The notes under the pieces: generated by a model
Databases searched by the model: none
What the model was told of the DNA's origin: nothing
The model's input: only the letters and a program-made list of their open reading frames with translations
Origin: Terriglobia bacterium
GTDB lineage: Bacteria > Acidobacteriota > Terriglobia > Bryobacterales > Bryobacteraceae
NCBI GenBank assembly: GCA_020073615.1
Contig: JAIQEX010000070.1
Coordinates: 1-35,263 of the forward strand
Direction of reading: 5' to 3'
Length of the DNA stretch: 35,263 nucleotides
Shown here: positions 5,473-27,938 of the stretch, piece by piece
Numbering within the stretch: position 1 is the stretch's first letter
How the letters are laid out: each line of letters starts with the position of its first letter
Translations under genes and position numbers: made by a program

Positions 5473-6112
5473 AGCGGCTCACGATGCTCCAGACCTCGCC
5501 TTCGATGGCGTCGATTCCGGCGCGCCCGTCCACCACTTTGACGCGCTCCGGTTCACGCGCCGCCAGCGCGTGGTAGGCGCCGTAGACCTGGCGATGGAAT
5601 TCCAGCGACTGCTCGTCCATGCGCGTCTCGCAGTGCGGCTCGGCGACGTTGCGGGCGCGGGCGCGGGCCAGGCTGGTCTCGGCGTCGATATCCACCAACA
5701 GGGTGAGATCGGGCTTCAGGCCGCGGCAGGCAATGCGCTCGAGCGCGGCTACCGCCTCTGCGCCGAGGCCCCGCCCGCAGCCCTGGTACACCAGCGACGA
5801 GTCGGTGAAGCGGTCGGACAGCACGATCTCGCCGCGGCCGAGCGCGGGCGCGATCCACTCGTCCACGTTTTGCGCGCGCGAGGCGAAGTAGAGCAGCAGT
5901 TCGGCCGCAGGGCTCAGCTCCTGGTTGGCGGCATCGAGCAGGATGCGGCGGATCTTCATGGCGATGGGCGGGCCGCCCGGTTCCACGGTTTCGAGCACGG
6001 TGCGGCCCAGCCCGCGCAGGCGCGCCGCCAGGCGGTGCATTTGCGTGGTCTTGCCGGAGCCATCCATGCCTTCGAAAGTGATGAAGAGACCTTTGGTCAA
6101 GGGAGAACCCAT
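5465..6112 (-). CDS. tmk: Thymidylate kinase
   Basis: Tmk phosphorylates dTMP to dTDP for DNA synthesis. With the ATG at 6112 the product is 215 residues, normal for the family. Motifs: P-loop GMDGSGKTT (15-23), EPGGPPIAMKIR (dTMP-binding loop, usually REPGGTP; the leading Arg is Val here), DRFTDSSLVYQGCGRGL (DR-x motif), DLTLLVDIDAE, then an Arg-rich LID-side segment RARARN. The frame stays open upstream to 6325, but that part is Pro/Ser-rich and translates the G-rich repeat, so the later start is preferred. It shares an operon with holB. Confidence 0.92.
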
Positions 6113-6116
6113 TGTA

Positions 6117-6190
6117 ACGGGGGCCGGGGGCCGGGGGCCAGGGGCTGGGGTAGGTGCGGCGCTTCGCGCCGGTGTTTTTGCGCCTACCCC
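6117..6190. repeat. G-rich repeat and adjoining hairpin upstream of tmk
   Basis: Positions 6117-6150 carry repeated GGGGGCC units ending in CCAGGGGCTGGGG, nearly the same as the repeats flanking the four-helix-bundle ORF at 26383 and 26841. Directly after it, GGGGTAGG (6147-6154) pairs with CCTACCCC (6183-6190), with an inner GGCGC/GCGCC hairpin. The block lies in the intergenic space between divergent tmk and padR. It may be a stand-alone copy or relic of the same repeat family. No ORF is associated with it here. Confidence 0.65.
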
Positions 6191-23870: not shown

Positions 23871-25211
23871 ATGACTATCGAGGGAATCAATGCGTTGGTG
23901 GTGGGGATGAAAAAATCCGGCATGGCGTCGGCCGGGCTGCTGGCACGCCACGGCGCCCATGTGCGCGCCACCGATTTGAAGCCGCTCGACGAACTTCCCG
24001 AGGCGCGCCCCCTGCTGGAGCGCCTGCGCATTCCCTTCGCGCGGCAGACCCCGGAAGTGTTCCAGGCGTGCGATCTGATTGTTCTCTCCCCCGATGTGCC
24101 GGCGGACCTGCCGCCGCTCGAGGAAGCCCGGCGGCGGGGCGCGCGCGTGATGGGCGAGGTGGAGCTGGCCGCGCCGTTTCTCAAGGGGCGGACCATCGGC
24201 GTCACGGGCTCGAACGGCAAGACCACCACCACCAGCCTGGTCGGCCATATCCTGCGCGACGCCGCCGTGCCCGTGCAGGTCGGCGGAAACATCGGCACGC
24301 CGGTCACGGCCATGGTGGATGCCTCCCGCGACGATGGCTGGAACGTGCTGGAGCTTTCCAGCTTCCAGCTGGAAACCATCGAGGAGTTCCGGGCGCACAT
24401 CGGCCTGGCGCTCAACGTCACCCAGAACCACCTGGATCGCCACCACACGTTCGCCAATTATGCCGCCGCCAAGGGCCGGCTCTTCGAAACCATGCACGCC
24501 GCCGATTGCGCCGTGCTGAACGCCGAGGACCCCGTGTGCGCCGCCTATGCGGAGCGCACCGTGGCCGCCATCGAGTGGTTCAGCAGCCGGCGCAAAGTAT
24601 CGCCCGGCGCCAGCCTGTGCGGCGAAAAACTGGTGCTCGACGGCAAGCTGCTCATGGATGCCGCGGAGATTCCCATACGCGGCCGGCACAACGTGGAGAA
24701 CGTGCTGGCCGCCGCGGTGGCCGCGGCGCGCGCCGGCGTTGACCGGGAGCACATCCGCGCCGCCGTGCGCACCTTCAAAGCCGTCGAGCACCGGTTGGAA
24801 TTCGTGCGCCAGGTGAGCGGCATCGATTTCTACAACGATTCCAAAGCCACCAGCGTGGATGCCACCCTGAAAGCCCTGGAGGCGTTTCCCGGTGGCCTGT
24901 GGGTGATTCTGGGCGGTAAGGACAAGGGGCTGGACTACAGCGTCCTGCGCGCGCCGCTGGCCGTGCGGGCGCACGCCGCGCTATTGATCGGCGCCGCGGC
25001 CGCGAAGATCGCGGACCAGTTGCAGGGCGCCCTGCCGCTGGTCGATTCCCGCACGCTCGATGCCGCCATCGCCCACGCCTATGCCCACGGGAAGCCCGGC
25101 GATACTGTGCTGCTGGCCCCGGCCTGCGCCAGCTTCGACCAGTTCAAAGACTATGAGCAGCGCGGCGAAGTCTTCAAACAGATCGTCCACCAACTGCAAC
25201 CCAAGGATTGA
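23871..25211 (+). CDS. murD: UDP-MurNAc-L-alanine:D-glutamate ligase
   Basis: MurD adds D-glutamate to UDP-MurNAc-L-Ala. From the ATG at 23871 (2 bp after the mraY stop) the product is 446 residues, normal length. Visible: the N-terminal Rossmann turn VVGMKKSGMASAGLLARHGA, LSPDVPADLPPLEEAR, ATP loop GVTGSNGKTTTTS, GGNIGTPV, LELSSFQLETIEEF, NVTQNHLDRHHTFANYAAAK, GRHNVENVLAAAVAA, KAVEHRLEFV, YNDSKATSVDATLKAL, GGKDKGLD and LLAPACASFDQFKDYEQRG. The frame is open upstream through mraY, but that is a shadow. Confidence 0.96.
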   Translation: MTIEGINALVVGMKKSGMASAGLLARHGAHVRATDLKPLDELPEARPLLERLRIPFARQTPEVFQACDLIVLSPDVPADLPPLEEARRRGARVMGEVELAAPFLKGRTIGVTGSNGKTTTTSLVGHILRDAAVPVQVGGNIGTPVTAMVDASRDDGWNVLELSSFQLETIEEFRAHIGLALNVTQNHLDRHHTFANYAAAKGRLFETMHAADCAVLNAEDPVCAAYAERTVAAIEWFSSRRKVSPGASLCGEKLVLDGKLLMDAAEIPIRGRHNVENVLAAAVAAARAGVDREHIRAAVRTFKAVEHRLEFVRQVSGIDFYNDSKATSVDATLKALEAFPGGLWVILGGKDKGLDYSVLRAPLAVRAHAALLIGAAAAKIADQLQGALPLVDSRTLDAAIAHAYAHGKPGDTVLLAPACASFDQFKDYEQRGEVFKQIVHQLQPKD

Positions 25212-25213
25212 AT

Positions 25214-26368
25214 ATGGCACAACGGCTCAAAACCGACTGGATACTCTTCGGCACCGTCCTGGCGATGCTGTCGTTCGGCGTGCTGATCCTCTATAGCGCG
25301 TCATCGATCATGGCGCAGCTCGACCCGCGTTACGGCTCGAGCTGGCACTTCGTCATTCACCAGTTGGAGTGGGCGGCGGTGGCGGTCGCCGCCATGATGA
25401 CCCTCAAGCGGACGCATTACCGCCGGTTCCAGAACCCCACGGTGGCGCTGAGCGCGGTTGGCATTGTCCTGCTGCTGCTGGTGGCCGTCTACTTCATCGA
25501 TGCCCGGCACCACCGCTGGCTGCGCCTCGGCGGGCCCTTTGGAGTGCAGCCTTCCGAACTGGCCAAGCTCGCGCTGGTGATCTTCCTGGCGTACTTCGTC
25601 GCCTGGCGGTCGCGCGCCATCAACAACCCGCGCTACACCCTGGTCAACGCGGCCCTCGCGGTCGGACTGTTGATTTTCTGCGTGGTGGTGGCCGATCTCG
25701 GCACCGCGGTGGTGCTGGGCGGCACCGCCGCCATCGTGTTCTTCGTCGCCGGGCTGGAATGGCGCTACTGCGCCATCGTGGCCGCCGTGGCCTTCCTGGG
25801 AGTGCTGGTGTTCATCCTCGCGGCGCCTTACCGGATGGCGCGCGTGGTGAAGTTCTTCGACCCCGATTTCAAAATCATTGCCAGGTTCGATCCGCAAGGG
25901 CGGATCAAGGCCCGGCTCCAAAAGTCCCTGGTCACCAGCGACACCAACTACCAGTTGGAGCAATCCAAGATCGCCGTCGGCGCCGGCGGCCCCCTGGGGC
26001 TCGGCCTGATGAACGGCCGCCAGAAGCTGCTGTATCTGCCCGAAGCGCACACCGACTTTATTTACGCGGTGGCCGGCGAGGAAATGGGGCTGATCGGCTC
26101 GGTCGGACTGCTGGCCGGCTTCTGCGTGATTTTCTGGCGCGGCCTGCGCGCCACCGTCCGCATGCGCAGCGACGATTTCGGCCGCTACCTGGCGCTGGGC
26201 GTGACCGTCGTGGTGGTGGTGCAGGGCTTGATCAACATGAGCGTGGTACTGGGCATGATGCCCACCAAAGGCATTCCCCTGCCCATGATCAGCTACGGCG
26301 GAAGCTCGCTGCTGAGCACGCTTGCGTTGCTGGGGATTTTGATGAACGTGTCGGAACACGCGGGGTAG
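25214..26368 (+). CDS. ftsW: Septal peptidoglycan polymerase FtsW (SEDS family)
   Basis: FtsW polymerises lipid II into glycan strands together with FtsI. The 384 residues form about ten TM helices. SEDS hallmarks: LILYSASSIMA in TM1, RWLRLGGPFGVQPSELAKLA, ADLGTAVVLGGTAAIVFFVAG, the long periplasmic loop with YQLEQSKIAVGAGGPLGLGL, AHTDFIYAVAGEEMGLIGS carrying the essential Asp, and KGIPLPMISYGGSSLL near the C-terminus. I use the ATG at 25214; a TTG at 25208 overlapping the murD stop would add two residues. The gene ends directly at the repeat-flanked unit that separates it from murG. Confidence 0.93.
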   Translation: MAQRLKTDWILFGTVLAMLSFGVLILYSASSIMAQLDPRYGSSWHFVIHQLEWAAVAVAAMMTLKRTHYRRFQNPTVALSAVGIVLLLLVAVYFIDARHHRWLRLGGPFGVQPSELAKLALVIFLAYFVAWRSRAINNPRYTLVNAALAVGLLIFCVVVADLGTAVVLGGTAAIVFFVAGLEWRYCAIVAAVAFLGVLVFILAAPYRMARVVKFFDPDFKIIARFDPQGRIKARLQKSLVTSDTNYQLEQSKIAVGAGGPLGLGLMNGRQKLLYLPEAHTDFIYAVAGEEMGLIGSVGLLAGFCVIFWRGLRATVRMRSDDFGRYLALGVTVVVVVQGLINMSVVLGMMPTKGIPLPMISYGGSSLLSTLALLGILMNVSEHAG

Positions 26369-26382
26369 CTCGCTCCGCTCGC

Positions 26383-26879
26383 GGGGCCGGGGGCCAGGGG
26401 CCGGGGAGAGGTTGGCCCTCCGGGCCTGGCTTCCTGAGTGGCGTGGGTGTAGGGGTTATGGCGAAGGTTTCGCATTTTCGGGAGCTACACGTATGGCAGC
26501 GTGGCATGGATGTGGTGGTAGCGGTGTATCGCGTCTCCGGAACATTTCCGAAGTCCGAGGTGTACGGGTTGACGTCGCAGATCCGGCGGGCCGCGGTGTC
26601 GGTCCCGTCAAACATTGCCGAGGGTCACTCGCGAGCTTCGACAAAAGAGTACCTGAACCATGTTTCCATCGCGCAATCTTCCCTGGCAGAACTGGAAACG
26701 CAACTCGAGATTGCATCCCGGCTAGGCTATGTGTCCGCCCCGGATCTTATGCCGCTGTTGGACCAGACCGGCATCCTCGGCAAACAGCTCTATGCGCTTC
26801 GCGACGCGCTCATGAGGAAACAATGACCGAGCGAAGCGAGCAACCTTCCCCTGGCCCCCGACCCCCGGCCCCCGGCCCC
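26383..26879. mobile_element. Candidate repeat-flanked element carrying a four-helix-bundle ORF
   Basis: A unit of about 497 bp lies between ftsW and murG. Its left end (26383-26414) reads GGGGCCGGGGGCCAGGGG, then a GAGGTTG. Its right end (26841-26879) is the inverted counterpart: on the minus strand GGGGCC units, then CCAGGGG and AAGGTTG. A second inverted pair, GCTCGCTCCGCTCGC (26368-26382) and CCGAGCGAAGCGAGC (26827-26841), matches at 13 of 15 positions but lies outside the left G-rich tract and inside the right one. The only gene inside is the four-helix-bundle ORF. No transposase is present. I interpret it as a small passively mobilised or repeat-derived element; target duplications are not evident. 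Confidence 0.55.
26458..26826 (+). CDS. Four-helix-bundle protein (23S rRNA intervening-sequence type)
   Basis: The 122-residue protein matches the 23S rRNA IVS/S23 family, a stand-alone four-helix bundle related to the Avd accessory protein of diversity-generating retroelements. Motifs: HFRELHVWQRGMDVVVAVYR (helix 1), FPKSEVYGLTSQIRRAAVSV (the family's 'F-P--E-YGL--Q-RRAA-S-P-NIAEG' core), SNIAEGHSRASTKEYLNHVS, and a final LGKQLYALRDALMRKQ helix. Length is typical. The biochemical role of the family is not settled; nucleic-acid binding is suggested by its basic surface and rRNA location. Its stop overlaps the murG ATG (ATGA), so it is translated within the dcw operon. It has no connection to cell-wall synthesis that I know of. 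Confidence 0.88.
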   Translation: MAKVSHFRELHVWQRGMDVVVAVYRVSGTFPKSEVYGLTSQIRRAAVSVPSNIAEGHSRASTKEYLNHVSIAQSSLAELETQLEIASRLGYVSAPDLMPLLDQTGILGKQLYALRDALMRKQ

Positions 26880-27938
26880 TTTCTTCTCTCCGGCGGCGGA
26901 ACCGGCGGCCACGTGATTCCCGCCCTGGCCGTCGCGCGGGAATTGCGCACGCGGGGGCATGAAGTGTTCTTCGTTGGGACGGAACGCGGGTTGGAGGCGA
27001 AACTCGTGCCGGCGGAGGGATTCGAGTTGAAGACGATCGATATCGGCGGCTTGAATCGCGTGGGGTTGCGGCAGAAGCTGGCGACCCTTGCCCGGCTGCC
27101 GTTCACCACGGCGCATTGCGCCCGTTTCGTGCGCCGCGCTTCGGCCGTCTTCAGTATGGGCGGTTATGTCGCCGGGCCTCCGGTACTGGCGGCGCTGCTG
27201 TGGCGCGTTCCGGTGGTGGTGATGGAGCCCAATGCCGTTCCCGGGTTCACCAACCGCGCCATCGGCCGGCTGGTGGCGCGCGCGCTGATTTCGTTTCCGG
27301 AGACCGCGGCCTGGTTTCCCAAGGGCCGGACCGAAGCTACCGGACTGCCCGTCCGCGAGGAGTTCTTTCGCATCCGACCGCGCGCTCGCGGAGAGACGCT
27401 CAACATCCTGATCACCGGCGGCAGCCAGGGGTCGCGCCGGCTGAACCAGGCGGCGCGCCGGAGTTGGGCCCTGTTTCGCGGCGCCGGGCTTCCCGTGCGC
27501 CTCGTCCACCAGACCGGGCCCGCCGGATTCGAGCAGTTGCGCGACGATTTTGCCGCCTCCGGCCTGGAGGGCGAAACCGTGCCCTTCATCACGGACATGC
27601 CAGCGGCGTTCGCCGCCGCCGACCTGGTGGTGTGCCGCGCGGGCGCGGGCGCGGTGTCGGAACTGGCGGCGGCGGGGAAACCGTCGATCCTGGTGCCGTT
27701 TCCCTTCGCCGCTGACGATCATCAGACCCGCAACGCCGAGGCCTTGGAGCGCGCCGGCGCCGCCCGCCTGGTCCGCGATGCGGAAATGGACGGCGAGAAG
27801 CTCTTTGCCGCGGTCGCGGAGCTCGCCCGGACGTCCGGGGCCCTGGAACGGATGGGAGAAGCGGCGCGGCAGTTTGCCCGTCCCGGCGCCGCGCGGCGGG
27901 CCGCGGAAATACTGGAGGAGGTTGCGCGGCGCGCGTAA
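26823..27938 (+). CDS. murG: UDP-GlcNAc:lipid I N-acetylglucosaminyltransferase
   Basis: MurG makes lipid II at the inner face of the cytoplasmic membrane. The 371 residues contain the first glycine loop LLSGGGTGGHVIPALAVAREL (from about 20), FVGTERGLEAKLVPAEG, the second loop FSMGGYVAGPPVLAAL, EPNAVPGFTNRAIG, LITGGSQGSRRLNQAA, DMPAAFAAADLVVCRAGAGAVSELAAAGKPSILVPFPFAADDHQTRN (acceptor and UDP-GlcNAc sites) and a C-terminal helix. The first 19 residues (TERSEQPSPGPRPPAPGP) are not MurG-like: they are encoded by the flanking G-rich repeat. The start is the ATG at 26823 overlapping the previous stop. Confidence 0.93.
   Translation: MTERSEQPSPGPRPPAPGPFLLSGGGTGGHVIPALAVARELRTRGHEVFFVGTERGLEAKLVPAEGFELKTIDIGGLNRVGLRQKLATLARLPFTTAHCARFVRRASAVFSMGGYVAGPPVLAALLWRVPVVVMEPNAVPGFTNRAIGRLVARALISFPETAAWFPKGRTEATGLPVREEFFRIRPRARGETLNILITGGSQGSRRLNQAARRSWALFRGAGLPVRLVHQTGPAGFEQLRDDFAASGLEGETVPFITDMPAAFAAADLVVCRAGAGAVSELAAAGKPSILVPFPFAADDHQTRNAEALERAGAARLVRDAEMDGEKLFAAVAELARTSGALERMGEAARQFARPGAARRAAEILEEVARRA

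Follow-up and report, generated by a model that had tools for sequence, protein, structure and literature searches.

Inverted heptamer arrays accompany S23 four-helix-bundle ORFs at bacterial gene junctions, including ftsW–murG of a Bryobacteraceae genome

Between ftsW and murG of a Terriglobia bacterium, an ORF of the S23 family is enclosed by inverted arrays of a 7-nt unit, and similar arms are found at S23 loci of other lineages. The S23–heptamer unit is real, general and, so far as we searched, undescribed as a unit; no publication joining S23 to operon heptamer arrays was found in the openly licensed literature, which is not proof that none exists. With moderate confidence, we consider the copy between ftsW and murG to be one copy of a small selfish element with ORF-less derivatives elsewhere; the mobility of this unit, and S23 as its agent, we infer from the observations described below.

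The window, i.e., the whole stretch of DNA that was analyzed (35,263 nt), is contig C12 of the source genome (G000, 6.96 Mb). The features of the element and its neighbors are as follows.

25208–26368, + strand: ftsW (host gene); PF01098; TIGR02614 at 320.5 bits, slightly below its cut-off of 337.5
26369–26381, no strand: palindromic repeat CTCGCTCCGCTCG, immediately 3' of the ftsW stop codon; from the sequence
26383–26414, + strand: 5' arm, a GGGGCCR heptamer array (26383–26406), then AGAGGTTG; inverted repeat I1, shuffles, period-7 score 16/21
26414–26426, no strand: palindrome GGCCCTCCGGGCC in the interval from the 5' array to the ORF; from the sequence
26458–26826, + strand: S23/IVP four-helix-bundle ORF, 122 aa; PF05635, TIGR02436, AlphaFold2, Foldseek
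26823–27938, + strand: murG, with core homology from about 26880; TIGR01133 above cut-off, match from residue 20
26828–26841, no strand: palindromic repeat CGAGCGAAGCGAGC in the interval from the ORF to the 3' array; from the sequence
26841–26879, − strand: 3' arm, CAACCTT, then a C-rich heptamer array (26848–26879); inverted repeats I1 and I2, period-7 score 18/21, translation

The stop codon of ftsW is TAG at 26366–26368, and the ATG of murG at 26823 overlaps the TGA of the S23 ORF in the ATGA described by the earlier note. The 3' arm is the reverse complement of the 5' arm: positions 26383–26414 and 26841–26872 are 84% complementary over 32 nt, with a local-alignment score of 20.0 (6.5 for the same-strand control). 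This score is reached by none of 2000 dinucleotide-preserving shuffles (maximum 17.5), which rules out a chance inverted repeat in a GC-rich stretch. The inverted G-rich repeats claimed earlier are present as complementary arms, but not as one fixed repeat; each arm is a heptamer array, (GGGGCCR)n or its reverse complement, accompanied by short palindromes. A palindrome lies outside the 5' array (26369–26381) and inside the 3' array (26828–26841); therefore, these are not simple terminal repeats. Palindromes related to CTCGCTCCGCTCG are also found in ORF-less elements of the source genome. As stated previously, no protein other than S23 is encoded between the arms. The 3' arm lies within the murG reading frame and codes for the Pro-rich MTERSEQPSPGPRPPAPGP ahead of the MurG core (from about residue 20). 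Elsewhere in the window, a second GGGGCCR array (6119–6150) is followed by a GCGGCGCTTCGCGCCG palindrome, with neither a C-rich partner nor an S23 ORF.

The assignment of the 122-residue product to the IVS/S23-type four-helix-bundle proteins is borne out: it scores 122.9 bits against PF05635 (cut-off 33.8) and 119.2 bits against TIGR02436 (cut-off 24), and its AlphaFold2 model comprises four helices with pLDDT 96. Foldseek ranks first 2gsc (2gsc_B, Xcc0516 of Xanthomonas campestris; TM 0.91, rmsd 0.6), then 2rld, followed by Avd 4dwl (TM 0.78, E 0.007) and the DGR particle 8ube (TM 0.77, E 0.025). As modeled, the S23 protein folds like Avd of diversity-generating retroelements; a resemblance of PF05635 to Avd is also noted in PMC10053308, whose reference list gives Xcc0516 as five four-helix bundles assembled together. 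The score against the Avd equivalog model NF033474 is 23.4 bits, below the cut-off of 80. Residues invariant among 40 sequences are L10, Y24, P31, L38, Q41, R44, S48, P50, S51, N52, A54, E55, G56, S75, and T81.

A MurG search of 61 genomes yielded loci for 30 of them (the source genome and 29 relatives), one without ftsW; the junction comparison covers the 29 family genomes with ftsW and murG on one contig. Here, the ORF is seen at ftsW–murG only in the congeners G000 and G001, and no tblastn match to it exists at the junction in 27 of the 29 genomes, in agreement with the proposed insertion into the dcw cluster. At 25 of the 27 ORF-less junctions, 2–64 nt separate the ftsW stop codon from the MurG core. 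Other insertions, without an S23 match, are seen at the junctions of G008 (L058, 147 nt) and G020 (L038, 411 nt). Three further GTDB loci carry ORFs that are 71–74% identical; L097 and L098 occupy the ftsW–murG junction, and L096 comes after ftsW where its contig ends. Judged by eye, L096 and L097 have arms built from other heptamers. Because L097 and L098 share the junction, while the heptamers of L096 and L097 differ, the S23 ORF is old at ftsW–murG within one clade, with the arms turning over.

The association of arms with S23 ORFs was assessed in a GTDB scan, of which the best 80 of 525 relatives were kept. Strict G-heptads, defined as GGGN4GGGN4GGG within 400 nt of the ORF (11 loci have a shorter flank), are seen upstream in sense at 38 of these 80 loci and in antisense at none; downstream, they are in antisense at 39 and in sense at two. 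In a composition-free test on the same best 80 of 525, self-match was scored at periods 4–14 with an arm cut-off of 16/21. The score peaks at period 7 and its double, 14; period-7 arrays are present upstream at 51 of 79 loci, compared with 2 of 71 displaced windows, and downstream at 40 of 77, compared with 1 of 70. Complementarity of the two arms exceeds the 99th percentile of shuffles at 56 of 76 loci (four of the 80 were skipped for short flanks). Relative to mismatched locus pairs the signal is weaker, with 39/76 above the 95th and 11/76 above the 99th percentile, which fits a resemblance among the arms of different loci.

The wider set comprises 117 loci, including one duplicate (L067 = L109, no arm) and related loci; 110 distinct loci have at least 100 nt of flank on each side. 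Of the latter, 64 score an upstream arm, 51 a downstream arm, 36 both, and 79 either, many arms being detected only at the chosen thresholds; no period-7 arm at the cut-off is seen at 31/110, including L218, L234, and the locus on contig C195 of the source genome. If one locus is taken per gene context, an arm is present at 33 of 43 and on both sides at 16 (45 contexts in total). By record titles, from which the taxonomic groups were taken (L150, a metagenome bin titled as Bordetella, served only for counts and for viewing its flanks), arms are scored in at least 11 named groups. Loci from Binatota (0/2), Nitrospirota (0/1), and Verrucomicrobiota (0/1) have no scored arm. The repeat-plus-ORF unit postulated in the earlier note thus extends far beyond ftsW–murG. 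Period 8 or 9 is reached at four further loci. Arms of period 8 rather than 7 are observed at L258, L261, L074, and L090, e.g., GGGCAGGA in Gemmatirosa.

The arms lie at gene ends. By the longest-ORF rule, which admits some shadow ORFs and makes co-direction counts rough, the upstream gene is co-directional with S23 at 67 and the downstream gene at 60 of the 80 loci (best 80 of 525 relatives). The array starts at a median of 0 nt from the upstream stop codon (IQR −4 to 4, n = 54) and ends at a median of +1 from the downstream start (IQR −39 to 9, n = 41; negative values mark downstream starts located before the array). An array lies within 120 nt of 41 out of 67 stop codons upstream of S23, versus 11 out of 169 stops of other long ORFs at these loci (Fisher 2e-18, relatedness ignored); that repeats might occur independently of the ORF family, the outcome that the earlier note had set against its reading, is not what is observed. 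These other stop codons and the displaced windows also rule out the arrays as plain genomic background.

A Pfam check, covering 19 flanking genes at 10 loci, gives junctions of IMP dehydrogenase with GMP synthase (L145; also L143, for the downstream gene only); thymidylate synthase with DHFR (L134); ATP-synthase alpha-beta family with delta-epsilon chain (L112) and with gamma (L170); transketolase-type E1 with E2–E3 (L123), and E1 with transketolase-type E1 (L117); ABC permease with ATPase (L118); Bmp with ATPase (L104); and DAHP synthase with prephenate dehydrogenase (L107). The gene names infA, rpmD, rplO, argF, and argG were assigned by eye.

Plasmids contributed 23 matching records, of which eight loci were examined: six have a period-7 score of at least 16/21 on one or both sides, the remaining two score 17 at period 8, and the arrays look inverted, by eye, at all eight. 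Two plasmid S23 loci are within cas operons, in the orders cas6–S23–cas4 and cas10–S23–cmr3; these armed copies are L255 (Anabaena sp. 90 plasmid, cas6/cas4) and L258 (Picosynechococcus sp. PCC 7003 plasmid, cas10/cmr3-type gene). Among the seven annotated plasmid loci, L254 and L257 have neighbors that run opposite to S23; the sense orientation is therefore a trend with exceptions.

Inserts in 23S rRNA are a known setting of S23 ORFs; the present element, with ftsW and murG on either side, is not inside an rRNA gene. Its predicted minimum-energy RNA fold pairs both arms around the ORF, although the total energy is no better than that of shuffles (z −0.68). Such pairing is what would be expected of an IVS-like RNA element. 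In this reading, RNase III would cut the operon mRNA where the two arms base-pair; S23, adopted by the host as a binding or processing factor, would tune operon expression; and the arrays would be immobile. The position inside co-directional operons agrees with this, as does the Coxiella IVS, which carries an S23 ORF, has a terminal stem of 28 bp, and is excised by RNase III (PMC4990558). However, the fold energy, the antisense copies on two plasmids, and scattered ORF-less arrays (see below), which a host role does not predict, make this explanation unlikely.

In family- to class-level relatives, with ORFs 28–63% identical, the units are often not G-rich and include AGGTGYT, CAGCTWT, AGAATAC, AACCGTG, and CGAAATT, among others. 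G-richness alone is ruled out as the common property, since the non-G-rich units (CAGCTWT, AGAATAC, CGAAATT, AACCGTG) behave alike. The unit varies among lineages, but matches between both arms of one locus: at the 36 two-armed loci, the mean distance between the upstream unit and the reverse-complemented downstream unit is 0.94, compared with 2.93 for permuted loci (lowest of 2000: 2.36) and 3.75 for the same-strand comparison.

Three units (GGGGCCR, AGGTGYT, and CAGCTWT) were tested in 41 genomes. Matches to GGGGCCRGGGGCCRGGGGCC number 94 in G000 (63 forward, 31 reverse) and 80 in G001, with none in the 39 other genomes; the reversed control gives 19 in G000 (9 and 10) and 23 in G001. Arrays of AGGTGYT number 19 in G003 and three in G035, both of which have S23 ORFs armed by AGGTGYT, and zero in the 39 others (reversed control, seven in G037). 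GGGGCCR and AGGTGYT are each found in 2/41 genomes, always those with S23 arms of the matching unit. CAGCTWT, with 52 arrays in G001, six in G003, five in G012 (all at its S23), one in G000, and none in 37 others, fits less well, as neither of the two S23 ORFs of G001 has arms of this unit (the second has no arms at all).

The source genome has only two detectable S23 ORFs, and most of its arrays are without an ORF. Among 20 of its stretches (234 kb), selected for containing arrays, six hold an inverted array pair; in four of these six (L175, L179, L180, and L193), the interval between the arrays contains two palindromes and a short spacer, which is the layout of the ftsW–murG copy minus the ORF. 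Dispersed short inverted copies without a gene, the mark of REPIN-type repeats, are hence present in this genome. REPINs consist of two REPs in inverted orientation and are mobilized by RAYTs, and the paired palindromes inside the ORF-less elements recall them; if the repeats were REP/REPIN-like and moved in trans by a RAYT (Y1) transposase, the S23 ORF would be cargo. Yet in the ORF-less elements the palindromes vary and the heptamers stay, and none of three Y1_Tnp matches in the source genome has a heptad array in its 3.2-kb locus. This speaks against a RAYT of this genome, and such an origin is very improbable as a whole.

Arrays are also seen in other settings of the source genome. In L176 (C16), by eye, heptamer arrays are located between rpmD and rplO of a ribosomal-protein-like region (2069–2253) and on either side of an infA-like ORF (5559–5845). 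In L192 (C107), G-rich heptamer arrays are inside long repetitive, coding-looking sequence (1600–2340), with a C-rich array about 430 nt beyond them. A second, armless S23 class is represented by L250 (C195, 4258–6331), where it is divergent to a 539–543-aa ORF starting with MNAFYEHH; L252 has the same pair. The 543-aa ORF of the L250 copy has no Pfam match at E 1e-5.

We also compared six array sites of the source genome with the congener G001, five of them having both flanks; some repeat is present in G001 at 5/5. At the first, the array set is common to both genomes (rpmD–rplO, by eye); at the second, the array is common and the palindromes are absent; the third is reduced to a palindrome and a C-array in G001; the fourth and fifth have a different palindromic repeat 3' of the corresponding stop codon, one also with a short C-rich run. 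This other repeat, at C37:10943–11069 and C559:3094–3243 of G001 (L240, L246), is centered around GGCCTCCCGGCC. Several families of repeats seem to have hot spots at stop codons. No clean empty sites for ORF-less arrays were obtained in G001 and no movement was observed at the five sites, which suggests that present mobility may be low, with little recent movement.

These data bear on the main rival to a selfish element, namely, that the arrays came first and S23 landed in them: the arrays would be slippage-grown simple repeats behind stop codons, serving as landing or recombination sites, and the transferred S23 a passenger cassette. Most arrays being without an ORF, arrays flanking the infA-like ORF (by eye), and the differing units in the arms of orthologous S23 loci speak for it. 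Moreover, array sites are mostly kept in the congener, as they are in Xanthomonas, and polymerase slippage is a proposal discussed for heptamer repeats (both in PMC4692102). Arrays grown in this way leave unexplained the ~9x excess at S23 upstream stops and the recurrence across phyla with different units, and we regard this sequence of events as doubtful.

The selfish element is preferred because of the period-7 enrichment, the G-heptad orientation, the matching arm units, and the enrichment at S23 stops, and likewise because of the genome-specific units, the ORF-less elements of the same layout, the 27/29 empty junctions, and the Xcc0516/Avd fold. Several observations are against it: no movement is seen, and 5/5 congener sites are occupied; CAGCTWT is abundant in G001; 31/110 loci are armless; the neighbors of L254 and L257 run opposite; arrays flank the infA-like ORF (by eye); and the RNA fold is unremarkable (z −0.68). 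Nor are arms and ORF kept together unchanged, since L096 and L097, by eye, have arms made from different units. Of the element proposed in the earlier note, the insertion and the repeat-plus-ORF unit stand; the unit is, however, lineage-variable, most arrays of the source genome lack the ORF, and mobility looks low.

The selfish element may work as follows; the observed basis is the arms, their period, orientation, and matching units, the gene-end position, the unrelated hosts, and the ORF-less arrays. An S23 ORF between inverted 7-nt arrays fits from the upstream stop codon to the next start, mostly in sense. The Avd-like S23 oligomer would bind a structure of the arm, either a hairpin or, where the unit is G-rich, a G-quadruplex, and would help to copy the arms, with or without the ORF, into further gene junctions by means of a polymerase or reverse transcriptase that is supplied by the host or acts in trans. 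Copies would survive where no gene is broken, and a sense, translated ORF could keep ribosomes moving to the next gene, limiting polarity; at ftsW–murG, the 3' arm would have become the Pro-rich MurG extension. More tentatively, we see some possibility of a new class of mobile elements, with an Avd-like S23 oligomer as the sole protein, a lineage-specific heptamer, and retro-type copying in trans, which would be the source of widespread bacterial heptamers and of which the 23S rRNA IVS would be a specialized branch.

The association connects two isolated observations, the S23/IVP proteins, whose function is unknown, and the heptamer repeats that occupy gaps in many bacterial genomes without a known cause; it may help to explain a puzzling class of bacterial repeats. 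If S23 makes or keeps the arrays, a single small protein and a short piece of DNA would suffice to test where the repeats come from. The association also suggests why "four helix bundle protein" genes are present in essential and CRISPR operons; methods based on guilt by association may mistake them there for pathway or CRISPR components.

Among known systems, G-rich heptamer repeats near stop codons and before starts are described in Xanthomonas and Nostoc (PMC4692102, Rehm 2015); convergent pairs number 70 and 75 in two genomes of Xanthomonas and are few in Nostoc. The repeats were generally not found together with mobile elements, and their function is left open. For the TAACTGA heptamers, horizontal transfer is suggested, without a mechanism (PMC4679880). 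The arrays studied here agree with the description in Rehm 2015: they are intergenic, consist of 7-nt units in tandem with runs of G, and lie near stop codons. Like both sets of repeats, they are intergenic 7-nt tandem units, with sense copies close to stop codons and antisense copies ahead of starts, and like those of Xanthomonas they form convergent inverted pairs (PMC4692102, PMC4679880). Unlike both, for which the accessible passages name no associated protein, they have an S23 ORF inside the pair, and, unlike the G-rich heptamers of PMC4692102, non-G-rich units behave alike.

One full-length gene-bearing copy with many short gene-less inverted-repeat copies resembles REPIN/RAYT, whereas the arrays are without a Y1 transposase and consist of tandem heptamers, not single REPs. 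The fold is similar to that of Avd of diversity-generating retroelements (TM 0.78, 0.77), while the sequence is far below the Avd model cut-off (23.4 vs 80 bits). The 23S rRNA IVS, as in Coxiella (PMC4990558), shares an S23-family sole protein, inverted ends that may form a stem, a length of about 430–510 nt, a scattered distribution, and, in Coxiella, heptameric repeats ahead of the ORF; in contrast to it, the S23–heptamer unit lies between protein genes of operons, not in rRNA, and its arms are heptamer arrays of varying unit.
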